From a virus: 64,000 bases of DNA. The notes under the pieces are model-generated. The model saw nothing but the letters and a program-made list of their open reading frames with translations, did no database searches and was not told where the DNA came from. The position numbers and the translations under genes are program-made. The DNA lies in IMG/VR virus record IMGVR_UViG_3300023179_007063, positions 1 through 64,000 of that record, one strand, 5' to 3'. Shown here piece after piece: positions 60,730 to 64,000 of this stretch (within the stretch, counting starts at the first letter, position 1; each line of letters opens with the position of its first letter).

Positions 60730-61545
60730 ATGCAAGACAAGTCGTCCTTCGAGATTCTTCCGACAGGAAAGCCGCACGTTTCTTTCTCTGAAGTGAAACA
60801 GTGGAAGGAGTGCTCCTTCCGACACCACCTCGTTCACGTCAAGAAGCTCGATGTCTTCAAGCCTTCACCCGTGCTAGAGTTCGGTACTGCAGTACACGCG
60901 GCGTGCGAGGACTACCTGTTGACACGCGTCATGAAGGTAGAGATCGCACACGCAGCGATACAGGACGCCTGGAAGAAGAACGAAAATATCGAAGAATTCA
61001 ACGAGCGTTCCCTCAATGAGGCGCTCAGAGATTCTTCTGCCATACTCTCTGAGGTCCCGGCGTTCCTCGATGAGACCTTTCCCGAGTGGACCGTGGTGGA
61101 CGCTGAACACGAACTCTATGAGTCCATCGAGGGTCATCCGCACGCCTTCAAGGGATTCATCGACGGAGTCATCAAGGCGAAGGGCAAGAAGGGAGAGGAC
61201 CTCTACTGGATCCTCGACTGGAAGACCTCTGCGCGAGGCTGGTTCCGCGAGAAGCGGTCAGACGACATGGTGAAGGCGCAGTTGGCGCTCTACAAGAACT
61301 TCTGGCACAAGAAGAATCCCCAGGTCCCGTTCAAGGACATCCGTTGCGGTTTCGTCATCCTCAAGAAGAGTGGTAAGCCTGGTACTCACTGTGAACTCTT
61401 CACCGTTCCCATGGGTGAGGTCCCCATCACGCGGTCGCTCAAGGTGGTGAGTAACATGATCGCATCTGTCAAGCGGGGCATGTCAATCAAGAACAAGAGT
61501 TCATGCACGTACTGTGAGTTCCGAGAGACAGAACACTGTCCGTAA
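60730..61545 (+). CDS. RecB/Cas4-like PD-(D/E)XK nuclease
   Basis: A 271-residue nuclease of the PDDEXK_1 type: FSEVKQWKECSFRHHLVHV (about 18-36), EFGTAVHAACEDYLL (about 55-69), FKGFIDGVI (about 139-147, metal Asp), LDWKTS (about 161-166, Glu/Asp-x-Lys) and QLALYKNFW (about 184-192). C-terminal cysteines (CTYCEF, HC) recall the Fe-S cluster of AddB/Cas4 relatives. GC-rich compared with the neighbours. Its role in a glycan cluster is unclear; it may be a recombination nuclease that landed here. Confidence 0.9.
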   Translation: MQDKSSFEILPTGKPHVSFSEVKQWKECSFRHHLVHVKKLDVFKPSPVLEFGTAVHAACEDYLLTRVMKVEIAHAAIQDAWKKNENIEEFNERSLNEALRDSSAILSEVPAFLDETFPEWTVVDAEHELYESIEGHPHAFKGFIDGVIKAKGKKGEDLYWILDWKTSARGWFREKRSDDMVKAQLALYKNFWHKKNPQVPFKDIRCGFVILKKSGKPGTHCELFTVPMGEVPITRSLKVVSNMIASVKRGMSIKNKSSCTYCEFRETEHCP

Positions 61546-61612
61546 TACTTCAGCGTTGTTTCATTTCATGAGATAGTTCTTATAGAATTATCGACACTGC
61601 AATCCTGAAAGT

Positions 61613-63301
61613 ATGAGTCCAATTTTTTCCATCATGTCAAAAATGCATGCCCACGAGATATGGACAAACGATGCAAAAAGACTGGAAACAATTGCTTCGA
61701 TAGGGTATAGAATCCTCGTCATACGGGAGAGCGAATACAAGAATGGATCTTGGGTTGATAAGCTCGACCGATGGCTGGAGGAAAATGGAAAAGAAAAAGA
61801 TATTGATACTGTCAGACCATCCGTGAACGACCACAGCTCAGCGGATGTAAAATTGGGTGAATTGCTGGAAACTCGTGGGATAGACACCACAGCGTGACTG
61901 GAAACGGTGAGCGCGAAGGTCAAAAAGTCTTACTATACGACAATCAGCAGCCAAGCTCCTAAGGAGAAATTCTGGAGAAGGTTCAGAGACTACGGTTAGC
62001 CTAAATCAAAAAGACACGGCAATGATCCGACAGCGCCCAACACCAAATCAAGTATGGTGATGATATAGTCCAAAACTTTTTGTAAAGTGAGCACCTCCGG
62101 AGTAGGCACACAGGCCCGATGGCTTGTATCAGGTCTGATAGAAACAGGCAAGTATTCGTTCAGATGCTTCGGCGGAGCGATTAAGCATGACAACTACGAT
62201 ACGGTCGTAGTCAACCCTGACTTCATCATCAAGCCTACAAACGGCTTCGGTGATAGAAATCTTCTACGCAAGACGCTGGCTCAGGTGAAGCCTGATGCCC
62301 TGATGCTGTTTACTGACCCACGTTTCTTCATGTGGGTCTGGGAGATGGAGGACGAGATCCACCAGATGTGCCCAATCGTCTATTGGCACTTGTGGGACAA
62401 TCCTCCCTGGCCTGAGTTCAATCGTCACATCTATGAGTCGACCGACCTCGTCAACTGCATCAACTATCCGACATACAAGATGGTACACGAGAGGTTCCCA
62501 GAGAAGACAAACTACATTCCTCACGCTGTTCCCGAAGATCTATACAAGCCGCTTCCGAAAGAAGACGTTAGGAAGTTCAAAGCAGCGCTCTTAGGCAATG
62601 AAAAGGTCGACCACTTTACGCCGATGTACGTCAGTCGTAATGCGAGGAGAAAAGTTCCGAGCGACATCATAGAGTCGTGGAAGATTTTCTTGGATGACCT
62701 TGAGGCAAAGTACGGCCACAGGAAGGCGACTCTGATCCTCCACACAGACCCACTTGATCAAGAGGGAACAAATTTATTTATGCTTGTCGACCTCTTTGGC
62801 GTGAAAGACAACGTCGTCTTCTCCAAGGAGAGAATAGGCTTCCAGGAGATGAGCACCCTCTACAACGTTTGCGACTGTGTCGTCAACCGGTCTATGAATG
62901 AGGGCTTCGGTCTACCTGTTCTAGAGTCGATTCTATGTGGCAAGCCGCCGATAGTTGTGAAGACAGGCGGTTTGACACGACAGGTATACGACGATGAGAC
63001 AGGTGAAAAATACGGTATCGGTCTGGACCCTGAAGTTCGAACTCTCGCTGGTAATCACTTCGTTCCCTACATCTATGAAGACTTCGTGTCTCACAAGACT
63101 TTCGCAAATGCATTCATGGAGATGTATGAACTCGGTCCTGAGGGGAGAGCGGCACTTGGCAACAAGGCAAGAGAGAGAGCGAAGAAAGAGTATAATCTCA
63201 AGAAAGTCGTCTCTGACTGGGACAACACTCTCGATTCAACGATCTCTAGGTGGAGAGATGATAGAAAGTCCTTCGACAGATGGAGCAAGATAGAACTATG
63301 A
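61613..63301 (+). CDS. GT4 glycosyltransferase, split by a group I intron
   Basis: Two exons: 61613-61637 (MSPIFSIM plus one base) and 62088-63301, giving a 412-residue protein after splicing (MSPIFSIM-L-STSGVGTQAR). Exon 2 alone, from a GTG at 62087, lacks the N-terminal strand that GT4 enzymes need. Family features: SGVGTQARWLVSGLIETGKY, MWVWEMEDEIHQ (about 89-100), and the donor site VNRSMNEGFGLPVLESILCG (about 274-293). ATGA overlap with the next gene at the C-terminus. Splicing needs to be tested by RT-PCR; if exon 1 is wrong, translation would start at GTG 62087. Confidence 0.85.
61638..62087 (+). ncRNA. Group I intron with intron-core elements P, Q, R and S
   Basis: A 450-base intron. 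P1: exon CAUGU (61633-61637) pairs with internal guide GCAUG (61645-61649), with a U-G pair at the splice site and a loop CAAAAAU. Core: P AATTGCTGGAAAC (about 61859-61871), Q CAATCAGCAGCCAAGC (61941-61956), R GTTCAGAGACTA (61981-61992) and S GATATAGTCC (62062-62071); GACTA of R pairs with TAGTC of S to make P7. P6-type hairpin CTCCTAAGGAG lies between Q and R. The 3-prime end is set at G62087 because this restores the glycosyltransferase frame. It encodes a Vsr-like endonuclease remnant before the core. Confidence 0.88.
61646..61897 (+). pseudogene. C-terminal remnant of a Vsr-like intron homing endonuclease
   Basis: Inside the intron the frame continuing from exon 1 reads HAHEIWTNDAKRLETIASIG, YRILVIRESEYKNG, KLDRWLEENGKEKD: the C-terminal half of EDxHD/Vsr-type homing endonucleases (W..D..R...L...GYRvLVI.E.E). 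The catalytic N-terminal half (D and H motifs) is missing, so it is probably inactive. The 3-prime end overlaps the P element of the core. It shows that the intron once carried its own homing nuclease. Confidence 0.72.
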
Positions 63302-64000
63302 GCACCACCACTCTTAAGAAATCAGTACTTCTCCGCGGACCGCTTCTGACTCAGTCAGGTTACGGAGTCCATGCACGACAGATCGCGGCTTGGGCGATAG
63401 GAAGAGACGACTTCGAAGTGCAAGTACAAGCTACTCCGTGGGGTGAAACTCCGTGGATCATAGACGAAAGCGCTTGTGGTGGTCTCATCAGAAGCATCAT
63501 GGAAAGGACAGTCGACCCAGGAAATAAGCTGTACGACATCACAGTACAGATTCAACTACCGAATGAGTGGAATCCATCGCTAGGTCGATTCAACATTGGC
63601 GTCACGGCAGCAGTAGAGACTGACACGTGCCACCCATCCTGGCCAGAATATTGCAACAAAATGTCAGCTGTGGTTGTTCCATCAGAGCATGCAAAGAGCT
63701 GCCTGTTGTCATCTGGTAAGATCACAGTCCCGATCCTAGTGATACCCGAAGCTTACAACGATGCAATCGTTGCCGCCGAGAAGACACACATCGATGAAGT
63801 CAAGTTCTCAACACCTTTCAACTTCTTAGTCTTCGGTCAGATGACAGGCAGCAATCCAGAGAATGACAGGAAGAACCTCTTCTACACTGTCAAGTGGTTC
63901 TGTGAGGCGTTCAAAGATAACCAGGAAGTAGGCCTGGTCTTGAAGACTAATATGGGAAGAAACACAAAGCTCGATAGACGACTCGTGACTAACTTGTTGC
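63298..64000 (+). CDS. GT4-like glycosyltransferase, partial (runs off right edge)
   Basis: ATG 63298 overlaps the preceding stop (ATGA) and the frame is open for 234 codons to the window edge. LRGPLLTQSGYGVHARQIAA is the N-terminal acceptor strand with a GYG loop; NIGVTAAVETDTCHPSWPEY, AVVVPSEHAKSCLLSSG and FNFLVFGQMTGSNPENDRKN follow, as in GT4 phage transferases. The donor site is beyond the window. Confidence 0.85.
   Translation, partial: MSTTTLKKSVLLRGPLLTQSGYGVHARQIAAWAIGRDDFEVQVQATPWGETPWIIDESACGGLIRSIMERTVDPGNKLYDITVQIQLPNEWNPSLGRFNIGVTAAVETDTCHPSWPEYCNKMSAVVVPSEHAKSCLLSSGKITVPILVIPEAYNDAIVAAEKTHIDEVKFSTPFNFLVFGQMTGSNPENDRKNLFYTVKWFCEAFKDNQEVGLVLKTNMGRNTKLDRRLVTNLL

Follow-up and report, generated by a model that had tools for sequence, protein, structure and literature searches.

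A group I intron in a phage glycosyltransferase gene is probably part of a collaborative-homing-type unit whose endonuclease gene has decayed

Phage group I introns typically interrupt genes for polymerase, ribonucleotide reductase or terminase (PMC3984707), and a 2025 paper describes their preference for nucleotide-synthesis and DNA-metabolism genes (PMC12350094). In collaborative homing, known from cyanophage S-PM2 with its psbA intron and F-CphI, from T3/T7-like phages and from the terminase intron of ICP1, the homing endonuclease gene (HEG) lies outside the intron and beside the interrupted gene; F-CphI uses an Endo VII motif, and the adjacent HEG of ICP1 is a T5orf172 gene (PMC6083498, PMC10448857). 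The phage locus analyzed here resembles these systems in that its HEG is outside the intron and adjoins the N-terminal exon, as it does in ICP1. It differs from them in its nuclease, apparently a Vsr-like enzyme and neither Endo VII nor T5orf172, in its host gene, a glycosyltransferase (GT), and in the overlap of the HEG frame with exon 1 and the intron. With typical phage group I introns it shares the Rfam family and a conserved position in a protein-coding gene, but not the kind of host; the papers that we searched, largely open-access ones, yielded no report of a GT gene as a group I intron host. Our overall reading, which we hold with a probability of roughly 0.87, is that a 263-nt intron forms the right-hand part of a collaborative-homing-type unit composed of HEG, exon 1 and intron, and that the HEG is dead in this phage.

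The DNA that we analyzed (the window, 64,000 nt) belongs to a virus contig of 97,087 bases that carries genes for a major head protein and for SbcC-like, PhoH-like and helicase proteins. It contains a group I intron: cmscan returned one match, at 61747-62090 on the plus strand (RF00028, 77.2 bits, E 7.2e-18), which exceeds the gathering score of 50. The covariance-model search thus confirms the group I core that a first-pass annotation had recognized from the sequence alone, and the P7 pairing and the 3' splice site (62087|62088) proposed at that time hold as well. Since the core is real, the question reduces to where the intron begins. Downstream, the frame of GT exon 2 is intact over about 404 codons, and the next gene (63280-63999), which overlaps the end of the GT gene, encodes a second glycosyltransferase-like protein (phrog_2170, 4.5e-8).

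To place the 5' boundary we relied on relatives of the GT, 16 close ones at first and then the best 80 of 491 from a profile search, some of them on the same contigs. The protein is uninterrupted in 72 of these 80 and starts with M..KKTILxLSDHPL-STSGVGTQ or a close variant. A search of the window's own genome with this intronless N-terminus matched at 61785, where the DNA ATGGAAAAGAAAAAGATATTGATACTGTCAGACCATCCGT encodes MEKKKILILSDHP and the first base of a Leu codon. Because the first exon of the intronless homologues is present at 61785-61824, the intron occupies 61825-62087, between splice sites at 61824|61825 and 62087|62088, in codon 14 of the GT gene. Joining 61824 to 62088 produces an uninterrupted 417-residue protein that is colinear with its homologues, and removal of the intron restores the GT frame MEKKKILILSDHPLSTSGVGTQ seen in intronless copies. 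Identification of exon 1 at this position rules out an exon that is missing or trans-spliced from elsewhere in the genome, as well as a candidate P1 (AUAGU/GCUAU) at the start of the HEG in L009, a contig with the same intron. Distinct intron-bearing loci are few, namely the window, L009, L070, L051/L058, L054/L055 and L076/L078; contig ends cut L054/L055 and L070 inside the intron.

Two other placements of the 5' end were weighed. The first-pass annotation had put the splice site at 61637, behind an exon reading MSPIFSIM, with an intron of about 450 nt that enclosed the remains of the HEG. A 5-bp P1-like helix with a U.G pair (CAUGU/GCAUG) can be drawn at that site and the joint is in frame, but this arrangement is very improbable. 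The N-termini of intronless homologues do not match MSPIFSIM: none of the 72 uninterrupted proteins (from the best 80 of 491 relatives) has such a start, and all 72 begin in the manner of KTILxLSDHPL. MSPIFSIM instead aligns to HEG residues HCNPDKYKSDFFHHIKKMCAYDIW of L009 and is part of the HEG relic of the window, and exon 1, P1 and P10, at 61785-61847, are conserved in L009, L051 and L078. The splice site therefore lies about 190 bases further along, the intron is correspondingly shorter, and the relic is a neighboring gene upstream of exon 1 whose reading frame merely extends across exon 1 into the start of the intron. The broader interpretation in that annotation, a group I intron in a GT gene together with the remains of an EDxHD/Vsr-like endonuclease, survives these changes to its 5' site, exon 1 and length. 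We give equally little credence to the placement implied by the Rfam alignment, in which cmscan aligned a P1-like hairpin at 61747-61769 and the intron would extend for about 333 nt from 61757. L009 does not preserve that hairpin, and Rfam picks another site there; the splice would fuse HEG codons to the GT; and the placement is contradicted by the conserved P1/P10 and exon 1, the model merely filling P1 with a nearby hairpin.

With the boundaries at 61825 and 62087, the expected RNA elements fall into place (Table 1). P1 comprises 7 bp including the U.G pair at the 5' splice site, a perfect 5-bp P10 directly precedes its 3' strand, P7 has 5 bp, and omega-G (G62087) is present. Every pair of P3, P4, P5, P7 and P8 forms in all relatives that have letters on both sides, with one compensatory pair in each of three helices: U-A to C-G in P3 (L051), G-C to A-U in P5 (L009, L078) and C-G to U-A in P8 (L051). 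P1 and P10 do not vary from one intron-bearing copy to the next and hence provide no covariation. The 40-odd nucleotides that separate P7 from P3 would fit a P7.1/P7.2 extension of subgroup IA. The minimum free energy of the intron gave no signal, being no lower than that of shuffled sequence (z -0.32), and did not enter the argument. The intron should self-splice from the mRNA to yield MEKKKILILSDHPLSTSGVGTQ. A non-splicing fossil, with the GT either broken or starting at the GTG at 62087, would accord with the dead HEG next door and with the presence of that start codon at the intron end; we nevertheless regard it as improbable, as the core helices are all intact with compensatory changes among relatives, exon 1 retains its frame, start codon and sequence, and exon 2 remains open.

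Table 1. Features of the intron unit and its neighbors in the window
Feature	Position	Strand	Basis or remark
PD-(D/E)XK exonuclease gene, left neighbor	60730..61545	+	Pfam PF12705 4.8e-18
Decayed HEG, only C-terminal part (L009 residues ~220-340)	61546..61897	+	tblastn; DNA alignment, 11-nt gap
Shine-Dalgarno-like GGAGG for GT	61777..61781	+	within HEG codons (WLEEN); also in L009, L078
GT exon 1, MEKKKILILSDHP plus first base of Leu codon	61785..61824	+	intronless homologues M..KKTILxLSDHPL
P1 5' strand CAUCCGU (exon 1); U of U.G pair at 61824	61818..61824	+	
Group I intron, 263 nt, ends in omega-G at 62087	61825..62087	+	RF00028; exon match, P1, P10
P10 strand GCUCA; partner exon 2 UGAGC 62088-62092	61836..61840	+	
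P1 3' strand / internal guide sequence GCGGAUG	61841..61847	+	
P3 5' strand UUGGGUG; partner CGCCCAA 62034-62040	61853..61859	+	
P4 5' strand UGCUGG; partner UCAGCA 61944-61949	61863..61868	+	
P5 5' strand UCGUG; partner UACGA 61936-61940	61873..61877	+	
P7 5' strand GACUA; partner UAGUC 62066-62070	61988..61992	+	
P8 5' strand CACCA; partner UGGUG 62055-62059	62041..62045	+	
GT exon 2, Glycos_transf_1 family	62088..63301	+	Pfam PF00534 2.4e-12; phrog_2170 6.5e-19

A full-length form of the HEG occurs in L009, where the gene encodes 340 residues (ORF 618-1637, stop 1638-1640) upstream of the same intron. It begins 36 nt past the exonuclease stop, its body lies upstream of exon 1 (1528-1567), and its end crosses exon 1 in another frame and stops 73 nt into the intron (1568-1822). 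The predicted protein has zinc-ribbon-like cysteines near its N-terminus and a NUMOD3 motif (PF07460, 2.7e-6), and relatives of its C-terminal domain in Aeromonas phages carry the annotation VSR endonuclease (38.9% over 88 aa). An AlphaFold model of the nuclease domain (pLDDT 86) gave weak top three PDB matches (E 0.07-0.15, prob 0.82-0.92), these being E. coli Vsr twice (1vsr, 1cw0) and then the I-Bth0305I catalytic domain (3r3p); a phmmer search of the HEG against PDB returned chance matches only. E, D, GDYWH and IWxxD are conserved in L009 and in two HEG relatives, L107 and L064, the residue order of EDxHD being read from the motif name. The product is a candidate Vsr-like homing endonuclease of EDxHD type. 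I-Bth0305I and other EDxHD enzymes couple a Vsr-like catalytic domain to NUMOD-type DNA-binding parts (PMC3943268), a layout that the L009 protein may share; unlike I-Bth0305I, the HEG described here is encoded outside the intron and carries N-terminal zinc-ribbon-like cysteine repeats, and the similarity between the two is weak.

The window retains a remnant of this gene. Positions 61589-61894 match L009 HEG residues 238-340 (62% over 103 aa, 1.4e-37, tblastn), in agreement with the C-terminal Vsr-like sequence noticed earlier in this region, and 61546-61662 correspond to residues 220-262 in a different frame. The N-terminal two thirds are deleted, the frame is broken and VIWE has become VIRE, so that the catalytic domain is not intact. 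The relic lies upstream of exon 1, and its frame continues across that exon and ~73 nt into the intron. Within its codons is the GGAGG that precedes the GT ATG by 3 nt, a spacing shorter than usual. To the first-pass annotation the homing nuclease seemed lost, which holds for the window copy and not for relatives that retain the gene, namely L009 and, as far as its contig reaches, L022.

Other loci preserve further degrees of decay. The relic in L078 corresponds to residues 266-340, whereas L051 and L058 keep about the last 40 residues only and have a stop that overlaps the GT start codon; because the L051 relic finishes there, not every copy of the gene extends into the intron. All relics have kept the right edge, and their left edge lies just beyond the exonuclease stop. 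Directly upstream of intronless GTs we found a full-length HEG relative in L107 (38% over 289 aa), a decayed one in L064 and, in L084, an ORF that shares only the N-terminal part of the HEG; this type of HEG therefore occupies the junction independently of the intron. The L084 ORF (1708-2457) joins the N-terminal zinc-ribbon region to a different C-terminal part, which may be a sign of domain swapping among HEGs.

Evidence for mobility comes from L009, which has HEG and intron, and the intronless L010, contigs from two metagenomes. Outside one patch, a single base differs between them in 21.9 kb. On the left they are 99.1% identical over the 112 nt that L010 has, up to the exonuclease stop codon; homology is lost directly past that codon and restarts exactly at exon 2. 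In between, L009 carries 1,243 nt (HEG, exon 1 and intron) where L010 has 104 nt. After the intron there are 88 differences in the first 1,315 nt (6.7%), then 1 in 2,875 nt, then 18,988 identical nt. The two contigs thus make up a near-isogenic natural pair, with and without the unit, bordered by a conversion-like tract, albeit one drawn from metagenome assemblies; both begin near the site, so an assembly join could conceivably lie behind the contrast. From the L010 metagenome, contig L022 breaks off within a HEG identical to that of L009, as would be expected if intron-bearing and empty alleles coexist there. Intron copies are 84-91% identical to one another versus 62-66% for their GT exon 2, and on the GT tree the intron state must have changed at least 4 times. 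At the level of sequence comparison, then, the intron, the exon boundaries, the order of the unit and its decay are all apparent, as is horizontal replacement of HEG, exon 1 and intron together in L009.

Ordinary phage recombination might also have spread the HEG and the intron side by side, their adjacency being due to chance and collaborative homing playing no part. Phage genomes often recombine into mosaics, the HEG has only a presumed cleavage site, and HEG relatives are found without the intron too. We consider this explanation unlikely, as a HEG or relic abuts exon 1 wherever an intron-bearing locus extends far enough in the 5' direction (the window, L009, L078 and L051/L058), and the replaced tract in L009 is short and includes the junction.

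Exon 1 itself travels with the HEG-intron element. In L009 it is identical at 40/40 positions to exon 1 of the intron-bearing L078 and at 33/40 to that of the window, versus 24/40 for its near-twin L010. At its end L009 reads CATCCGT where L010 reads CATCAAT. CATCCGT recurs in only 2 of 53 intronless alleles, and 38 of the 53 do not end in the T on which the U.G pair depends. Since the HEG lies beyond exon 1, joint transfer of HEG and intron would swap in a fitting exon 1. It is conceivable, at somewhat less than even odds, that the intron is an obligate exon-carrying unit, that is, that transfer of HEG plus intron must replace exon 1 and the start region of the recipient. If so, the intron would gain a fitting P1 partner even in alleles in which it would otherwise splice poorly; by hypothesis, the placement of the HEG was selected so that a fitting exon comes with the intron.

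Together, these comparisons suggest a unit that works like collaborative homing. Its order is a putative Vsr-like HEG, exon 1 with its ribosome-binding site, and the intron; the HEG follows the exonuclease gene and precedes exon 1, and where complete it reads through exon 1 into the intron. The endonuclease would cleave alleles that lack the intron, close to where the exons join, and repair of the break would copy HEG, exon 1 and intron together. The window copy would no longer drive homing, because the N-terminal two thirds of its HEG are gone and its frame is broken. The intron presumably persists because it still splices, and the HEG tail plausibly because it holds the ribosome-binding site of the next gene. 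The nrdB intron of T4 contains a dead endonuclease inside the intron; in the window, by contrast, the decayed gene is the outside one. The two cases are alike in that an intron with a defunct endonuclease would rely for its spread on another endonuclease, which for the nrdB intron with its defunct I-TevIII is the trans-acting mobE (PMC2988022).

Further intervening elements were seen in this phage and its relatives. A 2014 review placed all phage group I introns then known in protein genes (PMC3984707). Outside the window, the same phage has a second group I intron (G000:C1:85825-86067, minus strand; L017 1501-1743; RF00028, 87.8 bits), which interrupts a tRNA anticodon loop. Its removal in the U.G/omega-G register gives the loop CUCAUAA with anticodon CAU, and the ARAGORN register gives Gln(CTG). 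It resembles the 228-nt intron at 36/37 of a tRNA-Met(CAU) in a Klebsiella jumbo phage (OU509535.1; L113 1502-1803; ARAGORN with introns allowed), and in related Klebsiella phages, for example Muenster (L112), sequence that matches it lies unannotated between tRNA genes. Near the GT intron unit of L078, the upstream nucleotide-sugar dehydrogenase gene (about 198-1219) is apparently interrupted by an intein-like C-terminal end (...GIVVHN/CFPKD, the slash marking the junction), which adjoins a separate endonuclease-like ORF.

Our findings place a group I intron, patchily spread, in a phage GT family, whereas known hosts are mostly nucleotide- and DNA-metabolism genes. The loci display natural stages of a homing cycle, from the empty site through HEG without intron and the full unit to units with a decayed HEG, and L009 and L010 allow the states before and after insertion to be compared in near-isogenic DNA, where a conversion-like tract can be measured. 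Lastly, the layout of the unit suggests a way in which an intron may escape dependence on the exon sequence of its recipient.
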